DNA from: Cloacibacillus sp.
GTDB taxonomy: Bacteria; Synergistota; Synergistia; Synergistales; Synergistaceae
Reading direction: 5' to 3'
Assembly (NCBI GenBank): GCA_036655895.1
Contig: JAVVPF010000012.1
Span: 1 to 64,000, forward strand
DNA: 64,000 bases
Shown one piece after another: positions 9,567-31,134 of this stretch (position 1 is its first letter; each line of letters starts with the position of its first letter). A program made the position numbers and the translations under genes. A model generated the notes under the pieces. That model searched no databases and was not told the origin of the DNA. It saw only the letters and a list, made by a program, of their open reading frames with translations.

Positions 9567-11735
9567 ATGCGTTCGGCGGCCTTTAAAAAATTTATTTTCG
9601 CAATGATATTGATACCATTTCTTTTGATCTTCCCGCACGCCGCCACAGCCACAGGTTCGCTTGACGACTTGAACGACGAGATTGCGCGCTACCAGACGGA
9701 ACCCCTGAAACGCGCGCGCGAAATAGAAGACGGCCTGCGAAAAATGCGCGAAGTAGAAGACGGCCTTGCACGTCAGTATGACGTAAAAATGTCGGACGTG
9801 CTCGCCTACGAGTACGAGCTTGAATGGCTGGTAGACACTTACTACAGCCTATACTTCCTCCAAAAACGCGGAGACGCGAAAAGCACCTTCGTACTTGACG
9901 ACGCCGAAATAAACGAACTCGCCGCAAAAAAACCGCCCTACACCTTCTCATTCTACCTTGGCGTAGCAAACGACATGGCGACCTGCACCGAAAAATTCAT
10001 GGAAAACCGCGAGGCGTTCGTAAGCGGGCAAAAACACGTACAGCAGCTCAGCGAAGAAAGAAAAGATGCAGAGCGCGCCTATCGCCGCTGCCGTGAAAAA
10101 ACGCTGCTTTCTTCTGAAAACAGAATAAAATACAACTTTGAGCTGCTTGTCATCAAGGCGAAGCTCGAACGCAGCGTGGCAGACCATACCTTCTACGAGC
10201 TGGCCATGAAAATTTCGGAGTCGCGCGGCGCCGAGATGAAAGAAAAGATAGACATGCTCGCCCCCATCCTGAAGAACATACGCGCCAATATCAAAATGGA
10301 CAATGAGACCTTTGAGTATCTCGACTCGATAGCCTTTGGCAAAATGAGGAACATCCACAACATCACCGAGATGCTTTCACATAAATTCAACGAACTAAGC
10401 GAAACGAGACGCTACGCGGAGCGGCCCTCTCCGTTTCTGCGCTACAGCATACTGACCGAACAGACCCTGGTGGAAAGAGAACTGCTCTTTGTGCTGGACC
10501 TTGCCGAGGAATGGGCCGCCATGAGGCTCGTCTGGCGTTCAATGGGCGAAATGTTCACCGAAAAACTTACCGCACAGGAGCAGCGCGCGGTAAAAGCGAG
10601 GATAGAGGAGCAGACGAGCCAGGCGCAGAACGCTCTTGAATATGCGAACAAAGAGATGCAAAAAATACGTTCTGCCGAGGACGAAGTGCAAAATCGCTTT
10701 GGCGACGGTGATATAGCGCCCTTTTCCAAAGAGGCCAGAGAGCGCGACCTCTTTATGGAGAACCTAGAGGCGCGCAAGGAGCGTTATCTCTCCTACATCG
10801 TCATGCTTGGCGCGATGCGCAGCCATTACGAAACGCTCAAAGAAGAGACGGCCAGGATACTGGGAGAAGGCAGCGCAAAGGAAGACATAACGGACACATG
10901 GGGCGAAAATATCTCCTCAATGCTCGACTACGAGCTATGGAACGTCGGAGACTATCCAATCACCGTGGAGAAGATTGCGCTCGCCGCCTTGATTTTCGCC
11001 GTTAGCCTCTGCGTCACGCTGCTTTTCGTGAAGCTGCTCAAAATACATCTTAAAAAATCGCGTTCCATGAGCCGCCACAGCGCGCTGCTCGTACAAAACC
11101 TCGTCTTTTATTTCGGTGTGGCCGTCTCGTTCCTGCTCACCCTCTGGATGCTTCACATCCCTCTCACCGCCTTCGCCTTCATGGGGGGCGCCGTCGCCAT
11201 CGCCATAGGTCTCGGCACCCAGAAAATAATGGGAGATACGCTGAGCGGGCTTCTGTTGCTCTTCCAGAAAAAGCTGCGCATCGGCGACGAGGTGATAATA
11301 GGCGACGTGCAGGGCGTAGTACACGAAATAACGCTGCAAAACACCGTACTGCTCTGCGAAGAGACGAAACACATGATAATACCGAACAGCCGCGTGCTTG
11401 AAAGCTCCGTGCTGAACCTCACGCTCGACAGCACCGTCATGCGCACGGAGCTGAACATCCCCGTCTCGTATGACGCTGACATCGAACTTGCCCTTCTTCT
11501 CATAAAACGCGTGCTCGAAGACAACAAAAGCGTTTTGAAACAGCCGCCCTTCCGCATCCTATATTCCGACGCTGGAGACGGAAGGATCGTCATCAAAGCC
11601 AGATTTTTCATCGACATCAAAGTGACCTTTGAAAGCATCATAAAAAGCGCCCTGCGGCTCAGCATAATAAATTTATTCAAAGAGCACGGCCTTTCGCTGA
11701 ACACTCCCAAAAACGATGTCAGAATAGTTTCGTGA
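9567..11735 (+). CDS. Large mechanosensitive channel of the MscS family with periplasmic coiled-coil domain
   Basis: This 722-aa protein has a signal peptide (about 1-28), a long charged helical region (about 30-460) likely to form a periplasmic coiled coil, then hydrophobic helices (about 475-550) leading into the pore helix and beta domain. The AFMGGAVAIAIGLGTQKIMGD segment is the glycine/alanine-rich TM3 pore, and LRIGDEVIIGDVQGVVHEI is the conserved MscS beta-domain signature. The size and layout resemble the large MscK/MscM-like channels that release solutes during hypo-osmotic shock. ATG 9567 follows GGAGGG. Confidence 0.88.
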   Translation: MRSAAFKKFIFAMILIPFLLIFPHAATATGSLDDLNDEIARYQTEPLKRAREIEDGLRKMREVEDGLARQYDVKMSDVLAYEYELEWLVDTYYSLYFLQKRGDAKSTFVLDDAEINELAAKKPPYTFSFYLGVANDMATCTEKFMENREAFVSGQKHVQQLSEERKDAERAYRRCREKTLLSSENRIKYNFELLVIKAKLERSVADHTFYELAMKISESRGAEMKEKIDMLAPILKNIRANIKMDNETFEYLDSIAFGKMRNIHNITEMLSHKFNELSETRRYAERPSPFLRYSILTEQTLVERELLFVLDLAEEWAAMRLVWRSMGEMFTEKLTAQEQRAVKARIEEQTSQAQNALEYANKEMQKIRSAEDEVQNRFGDGDIAPFSKEARERDLFMENLEARKERYLSYIVMLGAMRSHYETLKEETARILGEGSAKEDITDTWGENISSMLDYELWNVGDYPITVEKIALAALIFAVSLCVTLLFVKLLKIHLKKSRSMSRHSALLVQNLVFYFGVAVSFLLTLWMLHIPLTAFAFMGGAVAIAIGLGTQKIMGDTLSGLLLLFQKKLRIGDEVIIGDVQGVVHEITLQNTVLLCEETKHMIIPNSRVLESSVLNLTLDSTVMRTELNIPVSYDADIELALLLIKRVLEDNKSVLKQPPFRILYSDAGDGRIVIKARFFIDIKVTFESIIKSALRLSIINLFKEHGLSLNTPKNDVRIVS

Positions 11736-11861
11736 CATGTATGACTATTGTAAATATTTAGACAAAGATGTCATATAAAGGCTCCCGTCGGCCGCGCCGC
11801 CCTCTCATATTGATTTACCGCATATATGGAGAGATAAATTTCGACGTGTCTTAACAAAGCC

Positions 11862-11880
11862 GCTGACAGTCAGCTTTTTT
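11862..11880 (+). terminator. Short terminator-like hairpin downstream of mscS
   Basis: GCTGA-CAG-TCAGC followed by six T residues. The stem is only 5 bp, so it is a weak candidate. Confidence 0.4.
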
Positions 11881-12008
11881 CATCTAAGCAAAACTACTGT
11901 GAAATTGGCATATATATAAATATTTCGTTTTACTTTTAATTTGCCGTTGCATATACTGGCGATACTTTAAAGAAACATAAGAGCGACGGGTTGAAGGGGG
12001 TAAGTATC

Positions 12009-12161
12009 ATGCCGATAGGGGAATTTATTCTAATAGCGACGATGAGCATAACGGCACTTGCGTCTGTCCTGTTTACATTCTACATGCTGAAAGTTACGAT
12101 CTGGAGCGAACCAGACGTTGTAAAGATTCCGGCCGCCCAGGCCCACAAAGCGGGTTGCTGA
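12009..12161 (+). CDS. 50-aa single-pass membrane microprotein, copy 1
   Basis: A 50-codon frame starts at ATG 12009 after GAAGGGGG. It encodes an N-terminal MPIGEFILIATMS segment, one hydrophobic helix (about residues 5-28), then LKVTIWSEPDVVK and a short polar tail ending in Cys. The protein is clearly paralogous to the 48-aa product at 12360-12506: both share GEF-[IL]-[LM]-IA near the start, an ITA/VTA-x-x-S-x-x-F core and a K-x-x-[IV]-W motif after the helix. It has its own terminator. Conservation of two copies plus ribosome sites makes coding likely. Function unknown to me; candidates are modulators of a membrane complex such as the upstream channel. Confidence 0.72.
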   Translation: MPIGEFILIATMSITALASVLFTFYMLKVTIWSEPDVVKIPAAQAHKAGC

Positions 12162-12190
12162 AATAATTTTCCACTCCCTAGGAAAAGACA

Positions 12191-12221
12191 TGGCCTTCCA
12201 TTTTGGAGGGCCAAAATTTTT
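12191..12221 (+). terminator. Terminator after microprotein copy 1
   Basis: TGGCCTTCCA pairs with TGGAGGGCCA (one G-T wobble), followed by AAAATTTTT. The A run on the left could also allow action on the minus strand. Confidence 0.8.
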
Positions 12222-12359
12222 GCCGCGCGGCATGAAAATAATTCATGTCACGCATTATATCTTGTCGTTTTACTAATCTTAAGCGTGCTGATATTATAAA
12301 CCCATCAAGAACGGCCGTTCTGAAAGTTTTAATTTAGACATTCTAAGGAGGTTGTGATC

Positions 12360-25321: not shown

Positions 25322-25370
25322 AAAAAACCTCCAATGGAGCGCTCTATACTTTCGCACTCCATTGGAGGTT
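25322..25370 (-). terminator. Terminator of the split-lyase operon (minus strand)
   Basis: AACCTCCAATGGAG and CTCCATTGGAGGTT are a perfect 14-bp inverted repeat. Read on the minus strand the stem is followed by TTTTTTG, so it ends the transcript of the two lyase genes; the convergent Lrp gene may use it less well. Confidence 0.85.
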
Positions 25371-25412: not shown

Positions 25413-26507
25413 TTATGCCGTCATCAGGTCGGCTAAGATATCTATGCCGCTGTCGGCTTTTCTTGCTGCGGAATAACTGAATTCGACGTGGTCTTCCTGT
25501 CCGCCCTTGGTGGGGATGGAATCTGCGCTGACCTGCATCGTCATGCCGCGCAGCCTGTTTAATAGCGCTGCCGCGCGAGGCGTTTCGCCGTTTGCTTCGA
25601 CTAGGTCGTAGGCCATCTCCGCTATTACTACGCTTAAGAGGTCCATCGCGTATCCCACCTGCGTGTTGCTGCAGTTGCAGCCCATGACGGCCTCATAGCT
25701 TCCGTCTTCGAGCTCGAAGAGGTTCGGGTTGTCGCAGGTGATGTTGTTTTCAAAGTCCAGTATCCTGCCGACGAAGGCCGCGGTCTCTTCGCAGGCCGCT
25801 ATCTTTTCGCTGCTGGCTTTGCCGCCTACCGCGGCGCGGTATTTTTCAAAGAGGCAGGAGAATTTGATGAAGGAGACGACGGCGATACTCTGGCTCATTG
25901 TGGAGCCGTTCATCTGCGCGAGGACCTCTTTGCATTCGAGGACGAAGGTCTCAGCCATTCCCGCCGCGCGATATGCTTCGGAGGCAGGCACGACTTTGCC
26001 GTTTACGATCGCTCTTGCGCCTGGAAGCCCAGCCACGGTCATTATGTTCTGCGCGATGGGCGCGAGGTCGCTCAGTCCGGTGGAGCCGTCGCCGTGCACC
26101 GCGGGCGATATCCCGCGGTTGAACATCTCAAGCAGTCTTTCTATCAGTTCCACACGCACGGCGGAGTAGGCGCGGCAGAGGATGTTTGCGCGAAGAAGTA
26201 GCTCCGTCCTTGTAACGACGGCGGGCAGATAATCTCCAAAGCCGGCTCCGTGGACGTAGGGCAGAGTCCTGTTCCATTCGATATGTTTGTCGGGCGGCAC
26301 AGGCACGTCTTTCAGCGCGCCAAGGCCGGTGTTGATGCCGTATACGGCGGGCGCGCCTACTTCAAGCCATTTGTCTATCTGTTTGCGCGTCTTGAGGCAG
26401 CGAGCGCGCGCCTCGTCCGAAATTGTCACGTTTGGGCGGTCGTCGCTCAATATTTTCGCAACGTCGTCTACAGTGAGTGTATAACCGTCTAAAATATATG
26501 TTCCCAC
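25413..26507 (-). CDS. HAL/PAL-family aromatic amino acid lyase-like subunit A (incomplete, atypical MIO site)
   Basis: This 364-aa protein matches histidine ammonia-lyase in several blocks: YGINTGLG (Tyr56), LPYVHGAG (His86), AQMNGST (Asn200), DNPNLF (259-264) and SIPTKGGQEDHV (Glu338). Compared with HutH (about 500 aa) it lacks the block containing the YSLRCQPQ motif, the LPPFLVE...NSGFM block, and most of the C-terminus. The MIO-forming Ala-Ser-Gly is not there: the site reads GDGSTGLSDLAP (139-150). The missing blocks are present in the gene 13 bases upstream, so the two products probably assemble together. GTG 26507 follows GGGAGG. Substrate and reaction are not assignable. Confidence 0.8.
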   Translation of the reverse strand: MGTYILDGYTLTVDDVAKILSDDRPNVTISDEARARCLKTRKQIDKWLEVGAPAVYGINTGLGALKDVPVPPDKHIEWNRTLPYVHGAGFGDYLPAVVTRTELLLRANILCRAYSAVRVELIERLLEMFNRGISPAVHGDGSTGLSDLAPIAQNIMTVAGLPGARAIVNGKVVPASEAYRAAGMAETFVLECKEVLAQMNGSTMSQSIAVVSFIKFSCLFEKYRAAVGGKASSEKIAACEETAAFVGRILDFENNITCDNPNLFELEDGSYEAVMGCNCSNTQVGYAMDLLSVVIAEMAYDLVEANGETPRAAALLNRLRGMTMQVSADSIPTKGGQEDHVEFSYSAARKADSGIDILADLMTA

Positions 26508-26520
26508 AACGATTCCTCCC

Positions 26521-27756
26521 TTACTTCAATGTTCCGACGGCGGATTCGGCCGCCTTCAGTATTTCGCCGCCGGCCGTCAGGTGTTCCGCCGCTATCATGT
26601 CGGGCGCCGTAAAGCGGTTTTCTACCATCATCGGAATCTCCTCGCGCAGGCGTCTGTAGGCCGCTTTTGTGCCGGCTCCGAACGCAAATTCGGGGATCTT
26701 GGCGTGCACGATGTCAAGCGCCTGTGCGGACATCAAGATCTCTACCGCCATGACGCGGTTCAGCTTGAGGATAAGTTCAAAGAGCCTGCTTACGGCGAAA
26801 TAGGCGTGGCAGGAGTTCGTGCGCTTTATCGCCGCCGTCGGCAGCGTCAGCAGTTTCAGCTCCGCAGTCTCCGCCGCCTGAGTCGATTGGACGATGGGGA
26901 AGCCGTAGTTGATGCCAAGTTCGTCCGCTACGAGGTTCATCGGCAGCCCGTAGGAGAGCCTTGTGTCGTTGAGGCGGAAGCCGCGGCGTTCGCTGATGTG
27001 CGCAAGGTCGGCAAGGGCCGTCGCAAGAGCGTTCATCGCGTATTCTGTCCTGTATAGCTCCGCTGCGCCGCTGTTCCAGTCTTTTACGACCTGCTCTTCG
27101 CACCAGTGGAAGATGTCGCGCGCTCCGCCGTGCGTCTGCGGCGTCGCGCGCACGCAGATGGCGTCCTGCACACGGGGTTTTTTGTCGTACCCGTAGGCGT
27201 ATCTGCCTTCGTCCGTCGTAAGCTGCGAGCCTTCGGTGATGCGGCGCACGTTTTCGGCGGTTTCGATTTGTCCGGGGAAGGGGCGTCCCAGTTCGTGGAG
27301 CCTTTTGTCAAAAGCGCCTAATTCACCGCGTATGGCTTCAAGGTTCATGGATACGGCGACGTCGGCCGTCTTCACGGCAATATCGGCGCGGGCGCAGATA
27401 TATGCGGCCATGCCCAGCGTCACGCAGTTGCAGCTTTTAACAAAGGCGCGTTCGCCGCAGGAGAGGGCGGCTTCTTTTGCAAGAGCCTCCGTCAGTATCG
27501 CGGCAAGAGTCTCTTCGTCGGCGCGGTCGAAGGGCAGCTCCGGCAATGAGCCTGACGCAAGACATTTCTCCGCCGCTTTCTTAAGATCGGAATAATTTTT
27601 CTCGGCCGCGCCTTTTATCAAAAGTTCCAAGATAACGGCAACACAGCCAATCGGAAGATTTTCAGCCATTGTGCAGCATCCTGCGCTTACGACGGCTTCT
27701 TTTGCGCCGCAGCGCTGCGCTGATTCAAGATCGTGGGCCCACAGCAAATTTTCCAA
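26521..27756 (-). CDS. HAL/PAL-family aromatic amino acid lyase-like subunit B (complementary blocks)
   Basis: This 411-aa protein contains the HAL blocks missing from subunit A: an AFDKRLHELGRPFPGQI segment near 148, RVQDAICVRATPQTHG (195-210, matching HutH VQDPYSLRCQPQ, with Arg203 kept and the tyrosine replaced by Ile), and LPMNLVADELGINYGF (271-286), plus the helical C-terminus. It lacks the Tyr53/His83 region and the DNPLVF/NFH and QED blocks. An ASG-S-L-P tripeptide at 67-69 might be a displaced MIO triad or chance. TTG 27756 follows GGAGGTG. It is the first gene of the operon and divergent from the SARP regulator. Confidence 0.78.
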   Translation of the reverse strand: MENLLWAHDLESAQRCGAKEAVVSAGCCTMAENLPIGCVAVILELLIKGAAEKNYSDLKKAAEKCLASGSLPELPFDRADEETLAAILTEALAKEAALSCGERAFVKSCNCVTLGMAAYICARADIAVKTADVAVSMNLEAIRGELGAFDKRLHELGRPFPGQIETAENVRRITEGSQLTTDEGRYAYGYDKKPRVQDAICVRATPQTHGGARDIFHWCEEQVVKDWNSGAAELYRTEYAMNALATALADLAHISERRGFRLNDTRLSYGLPMNLVADELGINYGFPIVQSTQAAETAELKLLTLPTAAIKRTNSCHAYFAVSRLFELILKLNRVMAVEILMSAQALDIVHAKIPEFAFGAGTKAAYRRLREEIPMMVENRFTAPDMIAAEHLTAGGEILKAAESAVGTLK

Positions 27757-28059: not shown

Positions 28060-31000
28060 ATGGAGACAGGAAAAATCGCAATCAAAATGATGGGCTCACC
28101 TCAGATAGCCGTAGACGGCGCGGCCGTCCGCTTTCCCTTCCGTCACGCCGACGCTCTTATCTATTACCTCGCCGTCAACAAAGAGGCCTCGAAAGCAAAG
28201 CTCTGCGATCTTCTCTGGGGAGACAGATGCACCGACGAGAAGGCAAAGTCAAACCTGCGCAACACCGTTTATGTGATCAGAAAACAGCTTGGCGCGGATT
28301 TTATTACGGAGCCGGCCCGACAGGTGATGGCGCTCAACAAAGCGCGCGTCGTAAAAATGGACGTAACGGGCGCGCCGGACGACGGAGCCTCTTTGGAGCG
28401 CTGGGAAGAATTTTTGCGGGATTTCTATCTGAAGGACAACGATGATTTCAACAACTGGGCGGCGGAAACTGGGCGTTATATCAAAAATAATTACTGTAAA
28501 GAAAAAAAAGAAAAGATAACGGCAGCCTTTGAGGCAAAAGATTTCAGCCTCTGCCGCAGTCTCTGCGGCCTGCTTGCGGACGCGGATAGATATGACGAAT
28601 TTGGCTGGCGCTACCTGCTGCTGTCGTTGGGAGAGCAGAGGGAGTACGCGCTTGCCGCGAAGAGCTACGAAGAGCTGAAAAATCTTCTGTGGAAGGAGTT
28701 CCTTCAGGAACCGGAAGAAGAGACGCAGCAAACGGCGCTTGAAATAAAAAACAGACGCTGCGCCGCCGCAGAAAGCGCGCAGGGCGTCTCTTTCGCGGGC
28801 GCAAGAAACAGATTTTTTTACGGACGCGAGGCGGAACTAAATCAAATATCGCGCGCGCTTCGTCTGTTCGTCGAAGAGGCGCAAACGACAAGCTTTCTCG
28901 TCAGAGGTGAGATGGGTATCGGAAAGAGCGCGCTCATGGAGCGGGCCGTGGAGTCCGTACCGCTTGCCGGCCGTGCCGCGCTCATTTCGGTGCGCTGCTA
29001 TCAGGCGGAGGAGACCTTTCTTCTCAAACTCTGGTATGACCTCTTTGAACAGCTGCTGAAAACCATCTCGCACGACACCTCCGCCGCGGCGCAGGTGCTG
29101 CGCCGCGCTGTGCTTGCGCTCTTTCCAAGCCCGGATTCGGTCGTGCCGCCCGCAGACGAACTTTTTACGGCCGGTCAGGAATATTTTATGGTAAAGGCGC
29201 TCGTTCGGTACTGCGCCAACAACCGCCTCATACTAAAAATAGACGACATACAGTGGGCCGACCCGGCCAGCCTCGCCCTTATACGCAACATCGTCACGAT
29301 GGACAAAAACCGCACCATTTTATTTGTCATGGGCTGCAGGAACGACCAGACCGCGGAGACGGAGCGGCTGACGAGCGGCCTGAAACTCTCCGGCTTTCTG
29401 GAAGAATATGAGCTGCCGCGCTTTACTCCGGCGCAGACCGCCGATTTCGCTCAAAATTTCCTGCCGGACTGTAAGTTTGACGCGGCCTTTAACCGAGCGT
29501 TCTTTCGAGAGACGGAGGGCAATCCGCTTTTTATCACCGAAATGCTGAACAACATCTCTTTCAGCGGCTCGCTTGCGGGATTTACACCTAAACTGGGCGA
29601 CGTCATCCGCCAGCGTATCTTGAGCATCGACAAAGAGGCGCTGCAAATACTTGAACTGATCTCCATGATGCCGGACGGCGCCACCTTTGAAACTCTGTCG
29701 AACATCTCTCGCACAGATGAGCGGAGGCTGGTCGAGATACTTGAACGGCTTATCGCCAGAAAGTTTATTTTCGAGGAGACGGGCTCCGGGGGCGTAGTCT
29801 TTCGTTTCACGCATCAGAAAATAATGGAATACGTCTACGAGCATATTTCCTTTATCAAAAGAAGGCTGCTCCATGAAAATATAGCCCTCTACTTTGAGAG
29901 CATCCTTTCGTCGCAGGCGCACGGAGCTTTCGTCTTTCCAAAGCTCATCTACCATTTTGAAAAGAGCCGCCTCCTTAAAAAATATCTCGAATATGTCATA
30001 AAAAATATAATTGGCTATTTGAATATGGCGCAGGAATATTTCCCGACAGGAGGCAGCGCGGCCCAGCCCTTTATCTTAAGCGGCGCGGGCGGCGTCTCTG
30101 TGCTGAAGCTGAATAATATCGAACGGTATTTCCGTTCCGTCGAGCAAAAAATAACGGAAAACCTCGAATCGTTCAGCGATGAAGAGGGGCGTATGCTGCT
30201 TTCGGAGTTTTATAATCTGCAAGGGCGCCACTACACGCATAATTTGAATTACAGCCGCGCTGCGGCCTGCATCGCAAAGATAAAAGAACTCAACGAAGAA
30301 TGCAGGACGGAGGCCCAGCGGAGCTGCATCCTAAAGGCGAACTATCATTTAAGCTCAATTTGTATGGACAGGATAGATATAGAGCCGCTGCTGCGCGCGG
30401 CGGAAGAATCGCTGCGGCTCGTCGAAGAAGAAAACGGCCCGCTGAAAGCTACGTGGCTGCGCATAAGCGGAATGTCGAAGGTGCTTGCGGGACGCTGCGA
30501 GGAGGCGCATTCTCAGCTGCGTGAGGCCGAGGCGCTCTTTGTCTCCTTTGGCGACGCGCGGAGGTACCGCTATTCCATCTGCGCCTGTTACTCGTGGATG
30601 GGCGAAGCATGCCGAAAACGATTTGACTTTGACGGCGCAGACGCGTGGCACGAGCGCGCCGTTACGCTATGCGAAGGCGCGGAGCTGCTTGGGGGCGCCG
30701 CTCTCTTTTACACGCTCTACGCGCAGTCGCTCGCCGACAGATGTCTAGTTGGCGGCGGCAGCCGTTTGGAGCCGCTTGGCTGCGTGCTGCAAAAGGCGCG
30801 CTCCGTCTTTGATAAATTTCACCTGCGCTGGTACAGGGGCACGGCCTTCGCCTATTCCGCGCTTGCGGCCTACGAGGCTGGGGCCTGCTGTGACGCCGCG
30901 AAATATTTGACCGCGGCGCGCGGCGCGGCGGAGGTGCTTGACAGCGACTACGAACGCTGCGTAGTAAACCGAATATCCGCGCAGATAAAAAAACGGATGG

Positions 31001-31134
31001 CGGAGGGCGGCGAAACGCGGGCGGAGCTTTCCGCCGCGGTGAGCGGTGGATTTATCTTCTACAAAGAAAGCGCTATGCGGATAACGGAGCGCCTTTTTCT
31101 TCCGATAGAGGCTGAACATCTGCGCCGCCTGTAA
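28060..31134 (+). CDS. SARP/BTAD-type transcriptional activator with AAA ATPase and TPR region
   Basis: This 1024-aa regulator starts with an OmpR-like winged helix (about 1-95, MGSPQIAVDGAAVRF through NTVYVIRKQLG), followed by a bacterial transcriptional activation domain (about 100-225), then a STAND/AAA-like ATPase with Walker A RGEMGIGKSAL (near 285) and Walker B LILKIDDIQWADP (near 390), and a long helical repeat region to the end. Such proteins integrate a signal by ATP-dependent oligomerisation. It is divergently transcribed from the lyase pair, making that operon the most likely target (inference). SARP-type regulators are commoner in Actinobacteria than in this phylum. Confidence 0.87.
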   Translation: METGKIAIKMMGSPQIAVDGAAVRFPFRHADALIYYLAVNKEASKAKLCDLLWGDRCTDEKAKSNLRNTVYVIRKQLGADFITEPARQVMALNKARVVKMDVTGAPDDGASLERWEEFLRDFYLKDNDDFNNWAAETGRYIKNNYCKEKKEKITAAFEAKDFSLCRSLCGLLADADRYDEFGWRYLLLSLGEQREYALAAKSYEELKNLLWKEFLQEPEEETQQTALEIKNRRCAAAESAQGVSFAGARNRFFYGREAELNQISRALRLFVEEAQTTSFLVRGEMGIGKSALMERAVESVPLAGRAALISVRCYQAEETFLLKLWYDLFEQLLKTISHDTSAAAQVLRRAVLALFPSPDSVVPPADELFTAGQEYFMVKALVRYCANNRLILKIDDIQWADPASLALIRNIVTMDKNRTILFVMGCRNDQTAETERLTSGLKLSGFLEEYELPRFTPAQTADFAQNFLPDCKFDAAFNRAFFRETEGNPLFITEMLNNISFSGSLAGFTPKLGDVIRQRILSIDKEALQILELISMMPDGATFETLSNISRTDERRLVEILERLIARKFIFEETGSGGVVFRFTHQKIMEYVYEHISFIKRRLLHENIALYFESILSSQAHGAFVFPKLIYHFEKSRLLKKYLEYVIKNIIGYLNMAQEYFPTGGSAAQPFILSGAGGVSVLKLNNIERYFRSVEQKITENLESFSDEEGRMLLSEFYNLQGRHYTHNLNYSRAAACIAKIKELNEECRTEAQRSCILKANYHLSSICMDRIDIEPLLRAAEESLRLVEEENGPLKATWLRISGMSKVLAGRCEEAHSQLREAEALFVSFGDARRYRYSICACYSWMGEACRKRFDFDGADAWHERAVTLCEGAELLGGAALFYTLYAQSLADRCLVGGGSRLEPLGCVLQKARSVFDKFHLRWYRGTAFAYSALAAYEAGACCDAAKYLTAARGAAEVLDSDYERCVVNRISAQIKKRMAEGGETRAELSAAVSGGFIFYKESAMRITERLFLPIEAEHLRRL

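Follow-up and report, generated by a model that had tools for sequence, protein, structure and literature searches.

Two paired HAL-family proteins from Cloacibacillus jointly hold most residues of one HAL-type pocket and lack the Ala-Ser-Gly triad of the MIO electrophile

Two adjacent genes of a Cloacibacillus sp. encode distinct members of the HAL family, referred to here as subunits A and B, which between them carry the base and substrate-binding residues of a HAL-type site, complete but for MIO, Tyr280 and Phe329. Textbooks explain the expulsion of ammonia by HAL, PAL and related enzymes through MIO. In A/B a canonical MIO is very probably absent, and the active site is likely to be a composite of the two subunits. 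The explanation that we tentatively favour, with a probability just short of even, is that A/B is a heteromeric, MIO-free HAL-type lyase of ergothioneine catabolism, which probably frees trimethylamine from a histidine betaine.

Both genes lie on the minus strand of the window, the stretch of 64,000 nucleotides analysed here (positions 1 to 64,000 of contig JAVVPF010000012.1). The gene for B (26521..27756) starts with TTG and encodes 411 aa. It is followed by the gene for A (25413..26507, 364 aa), which begins 13 bases past the B stop with a GTG codon preceded by the ribosome-binding site GGGAGGA. The B-A transcript probably ends at a terminator (25326..25370, minus strand), recognised in the sequence itself as a 14-base perfect inverted repeat (25326-25339 / 25357-25370) with six T after it on the minus strand. 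The sole Pfam match of either product is the HAL-family profile PF00221 (Lyase_aromatic, cut-off 27.3 bits), with 220.8 bits for A and 166.9 bits for B. Scores against the NCBIfam hutH model TIGR01225 amount to 180.6 bits for A and 137.7 bits for B, under the curated cut-off of 539. Single-chain models of A (pLDDT 82.9, pTM 0.87) and B (pLDDT 82.9, pTM 0.84) both match HAL structures with a Foldseek probability of 1.00; aminomutase structures are also matched by A and ergothionase structures by B. Divergent from B, a plus-strand gene (28060..31134) encodes a 1024-aa protein with an AAA_16 match, whose homologues also match BTAD. Genes of this family are divergent from B in loci L037-L040 and L044 and located upstream of it in L046 and L047, and the protein probably regulates the B-A pair.

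Where HAL reads GSVGASGDLAP, residues 139-150 of A read GDGSTGLSDLAP and are one residue short. In the joint alignment, G141-A142-S143-G144-D145 of P. putida HAL (1gkm) is matched by G-L-S-gap-D, i.e. Ala is replaced by Leu, Ser is in place if the gap is set at Gly144, and Gly is missing. This arrangement stands in 20/20 A homologues in place of an MIO-type triad, be it Ala-Ser-Gly or an xSG/xCG variant. The core of the shortened loop, GSTGLSDL (A residues 141-148; 26064..26087, minus strand), is invariant in all 20 homologues that cover it in one frame, which come from the window's own genome (twice), its relatives, Clostridia and Paenibacillus, and the number of synonymous codons that encode it ranges from two to six per position. 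As the motif is invariant throughout this synonymous variation, the shortened loop can be put down neither to chance nor to an error of sequencing. Thus, a sequence-only reading that had noted the missing Ala-Ser-Gly triad in A was exact, and the sequencing error at 26060-26075 that it had allowed for is ruled out.

One residue of the loop might still serve an electrophile. Ser146 is invariant (20/20) and, with the gap at Gly144, stands at HAL Ser143, where ergothionases have Ala or Gly; the counterpart of HAL Asp145 is also kept. These features would suit a non-canonical MIO or related electrophile formed in A by cyclisation of Leu145-Ser146-Asp147. However, MIO cyclisation needs the glycine, and the third place of the triad is Gly in 26/26 HAL rows and in both ACG-type rows. 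Given in addition the missing residue in the loop and the replacement of Phe329 by Cys and of Tyr280 by Ile, such a cyclisation is very improbable.

The remaining pocket residues of HAL are divided between the two chains. Subunit A carries Tyr56 (HAL Tyr53; 26340..26342) in the base loop YGINTG, His86 (His83; 26250..26252), Asn200 (Asn195; 25908..25910) and Glu338 (Glu414; 25494..25496) in QEDHVEFS, all on the minus strand and each invariant in 20/20 homologues, and none of these four is found in B. HAL Gln277 and Arg283, on the other hand, are kept in B alone (22/22, joint alignment). They belong to the segment QDAICVR (B residues 197-203; 27148..27168, minus strand), whose Gln, Ile and Arg are invariant in all 22 B homologues, while in A the Gln277-Tyr280-Arg283 segment is deleted or unrecognisable in the joint alignment. 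B retains the C-terminal helices and is devoid of the Tyr53 loop, the MIO loop, the residue-329 loop and Glu414. Tyr280 and Phe329, the neighbours of MIO in HAL, are both replaced, the former by Ile in 22/22 B and the latter by Cys in 20/20 A. This Cys279 lies in the loop MGCNCSNTQV (A residues 275-284; 25656..25685, minus strand), which matches the HAL residue-329 loop and also contains an invariant Cys277.

From structural knowledge of HAL and PAL, Tyr53, His83, MIO, Asn195 and Glu414 of one site are assigned to one chain, Gln277, Tyr280 and Arg283 to a second and Phe329 to a third. The A/B split follows this three-chain pattern, so that an A2B2 tetramer would have two complete and two dead sites. 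MIO-family enzymes are homotetramers in which each of the four sites is built by three interlocking monomers (PMC9002059); as to which chain contributes which HAL pocket residue, this general statement of a three-chain site was all that we found in the literature. The proposal that A and B are paired subunits, already made from the sequence, is supported by their complementary losses, their constant adjacency and their relationship as sister paralogues. We also considered A as an ordinary HAL fragment and rejected this, as the triad that it lacks is not found on any adjacent piece, and A and B are paralogues, each conserved in its own right.

In the favoured explanation, A and B would assemble as a heteromer, probably A2B2. 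A working site would be formed by one A, contributing Tyr56 as the base, His86 and Glu338 for the imidazole, and Asn200, by one B supplying Gln197 as well as Arg203 for the carboxylate, and by the Cys279 loop of the other A chain, and two of the four sites would be dead. Since the residue-329 loop reaches a neighbouring site and GCNCSNTQ is invariant in 20/20 A, replacing GGNFHAEP of HAL, one may ask whether Cys279 and Cys277 take over the role of MIO by covalent or acid catalysis. This is improbable, because a thiol is a nucleophile and not an electrophile and the cysteines may only shape the pocket; moreover, we know of no precedent in the family for Cys catalysis replacing MIO.

The sequence-only reading had also suggested that the electrophile is supplied in trans by B. 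Its ASGSLPEL with ASG at B residues 67-69 (27550..27558, minus strand) was read correctly, and the presence of this tripeptide in the window's B speaks for an MIO formed there. Across the B homologues, however, ASG is unique to the window's B (1/22) and absent from the other 21, the closest one with 75% identity included. It is not a functional feature, a displaced triad is ruled out by non-conservation, and formation of MIO in trans by this tripeptide has practically no probability left. Residues 67-69 sit in a degenerate, poorly conserved N-terminal region ahead of the MIO-loop position. In the joint alignment, the MIO-loop residues are absent from 22/22 B, and the segment opposite the MIO loop holds no triad in any of them. 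In Paenibacillus B, the N-terminal region of which is still recognisably HAL-like, we read KENMTELSAMSEL at the MIO-loop position of the alignment.

Among the options raised before, the absence of MIO chemistry fits best. Loss of the triad with the remaining pocket kept is the pattern of ergothionase, an enzyme that the sequence-only reading had left out of account. PMC13405746, citing Maurer et al. 2019, describes ergothionase as a HAL-family trimethylamine lyase without MIO. Like A/B, the enzyme from Treponema denticola (6s7j/6s7q) has the HAL fold, has lost the triad in a loop that is one residue short, keeps Tyr53, His83, Arg283 and Glu414 and has an aliphatic residue at Tyr280; ergothionase genes occur in the same clusters and genomes as A/B. 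In all 23 aligned rows of the ergothionase clade, the loop is short by the same residue as in A, and Leu stands at Tyr280. Unlike A/B, ergothionase is a single chain of ~500 aa with Ser at Asn195, a retained Phe329, the lysine of FGT[FI]QKT and its own loop GSVG[EAQ][GA]D, and it forms a separate clade in the best tree. Because A/B have neither this lysine nor Ser at 195, their chemistry need not equal that of ergothionase.

HutH of Pseudomonas putida (1b8f/1gkm) shares with A the fold, the base Tyr53, the imidazole-binding His83 and Glu414, and Asn195, and with B the fold, Gln277 and Arg283. In contrast to the two chains of A/B, it is a homotetramer with Tyr280, Phe329 and an MIO made from Ala142-Ser143-Gly144. 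Among the best full-length matches to both A and B in the window's phylum are ACG-type HAL homologues of ~540 aa (L041 6467-8080, L042 8885-10519 and L043 7004-8602). Unlike A/B, these are single chains with an Ala-Cys-Gly triad and a complete HAL site in which the other pocket residues are all kept, and they are not the sister group of A/B in the tree.

Retention of the base, imidazole and carboxylate contacts together with loss of the electrophile suggests that A/B carry out a simple acid/base elimination on a substrate with a leaving group that does not require MIO. The reaction and substrate that we infer for A/B are the release of trimethylamine from a histidine-type betaine, e.g. hercynine or modified ergothioneine. 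As this leaving group would be a tertiary amine, as in ergothionase, an electrophile would not be needed and plain acid/base elimination would be enough.

The choice of a histidine betaine is suggested by the genetic company of A/B. Full-length HAL homologues in five A/B clusters (L038, L040, L045, L046 and L047) are all ergothionase orthologues, with 46-47% identity to 6s7j and 28-33% to HAL. Ergothionase is present in 14/14 well-assembled genomes with intact A/B and in 14/19 A/B genomes overall; the five without it are two short-contig MAGs, two genomes whose A is truncated, and Devosia, in which A is frameshifted. As background, ergothionase occurs in 26/188 genomes of the window's phylum and in 15/201 genomes of a Paenibacillus-family sample, where 4/4 A/B genomes have it (hypergeometric 2e-5; this value and that of 2e-3 are indicative only, because the Paenibacillus-family sample was drawn around an A/B genome and related genomes do not count as independent). 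BCCT betaine transporters are found near A/B in L038 and L045, and betaine-type (OpuAC) ABC binding proteins adjoin B in Paenibacillus. L056 has the gene order ABC, permease, binding protein, two flavin monooxygenases, EamA, B, A, and an ergothionase operon in L098 is arranged in parallel to it. Subunits of a xanthine-dehydrogenase-type molybdenum enzyme are encoded near A/B in six loci (L038, L040, L044-L047), and in L047 a gene for imidazolonepropionase (hutI, 468 bits, cut-off 298) comes after A.

Part of this company would also suit a MIO-free two-subunit enzyme that acts after ergothionase on (thio)urocanate or on the product of a molybdenum hydroxylase, by hydration, isomerisation or sulfur loss and without release of trimethylamine. 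Well-assembled genomes with an intact A never have A/B without ergothionase, whereas ergothionase is common without A/B. This counts against the favoured explanation, since the substrate of A/B could be an ergothionase product from which trimethylamine is already gone, and the neighbouring molybdenum enzymes and hutI point in the same direction. On the other hand, the amine-lyase base and the imidazole- and carboxylate-binding residues are kept, the B-A operon of L056 has a betaine-type ABC transporter of its own in parallel to the L098 operon, and the characterised HAL-fold enzymes eliminate or move an amine to our knowledge. We consider a role after ergothionase unlikely, and a betaine lyase remains our preferred reading.

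Urocanase (hutU) is present in 15/15 A/B genomes searched and thus does not discriminate. S-methyl thiohydantoin desulfurase was rejected as a marker of the A/B route. It has only a distant relative in L053 (69-77 bits, cut-offs 440-450) and no match in the window's genome, and hence does not identify the A/B substrate; in Paenibacillus it accompanies ergothionase and not A/B. In the window's own genome, the ergothionase orthologue (507 aa, 497 bits to 6s7j, loop GSVGEGDI) is encoded away from A/B, beside BCCT and molybdenum-enzyme genes. This cluster (L095 5540-14911) comprises ergothionase, BCCT and, for the molybdenum enzymes, two large subunits together with FAD and 2Fe-2S subunits, and is a candidate for an anaerobic ergothioneine route.

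The A/B family is rare and scattered. The window's own genome has a second A/B pair, and both pairs recur in each of two related complete genomes. A scan of 84,980 species with one genome per species revealed 17 further loci, in Cuneatibacter, Dethiosulfatibacter, Acidaminobacter, other Clostridia, Paenibacillus and Devosia. A and B are always neighbours, in the order B-A in 23 loci. The family occurs in 3/188 genomes of the window's phylum, in 4/201 of the Paenibacillus-family sample and in 1/391 and 1/250 of two more samples, where the one match is in each case the genome around which the sample was drawn. A and B form one clade each (SH-aLRT 100 for both), and the two clades are sisters (SH-aLRT 93), which the best tree places on the side of the MIO enzymes. 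In that tree A/B fall outside the ergothionase clade, but a tree that unites A/B with ergothionase in one MIO-less group is not rejected (p-AU 0.33). Loss of MIO in A/B and ergothionase may have been shared or convergent, and ergothionase may or may not be the direct ancestor of A/B. It is conceivable, at somewhat less than even odds, that a duplication split the three-chain site between two subunits and that MIO was abandoned on the way to a lyase that frees trimethylamine from some histidine betaine distinct from ergothioneine.

A and B are shorter than HAL, to the greatest extent in Clostridia and in the lineage of the window, and A is truncated in L058 and L059 and frameshifted in L060, as might be expected of a decaying or regulatory pseudoenzyme. 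Nevertheless, the pocket residues do not vary from phylum to phylum, although identity over the remainder is down to about 45%, changes in the motif are mainly synonymous, and three related genomes each keep two pairs; a pseudoenzyme is hardly probable. The truncated copies (L058 1687-2172, L059 2226-2711) follow an intact B and start only at A residue 199, with the shortened loop, Tyr56 and His86 gone. Right behind A in L044, there is a second A-like gene in two frames (11158-12253), which reads GCTGLGDLAP.

Ergothionase is the described exception to the need for MIO, and A/B would be a second MIO-free branch. If so, the pair would show how gene duplication divides an oligomeric active site over obligately paired subunits and would help to test when the MIO electrophile becomes dispensable. 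As a trimethylamine-releasing lyase it would also add a trimethylamine route outside present annotation, and surveys for ergothionase-like sequences only may miss A/B. The link to ergothioneine is of interest because the part of this dietary antioxidant as a trimethylamine source is disputed.

A third triad-less group of the HAL family, composed of G000:C60:4338-5810 (L006) and L078 1426-3012, is nested among MIO enzymes in the tree, and the loop of L006, GSVGYLDAEAHAA, is shorter still. A very divergent HAL homologue from Devosia (L079 1402-2961) with the short loop GSIGCADI groups with the ergothionases on a long branch.
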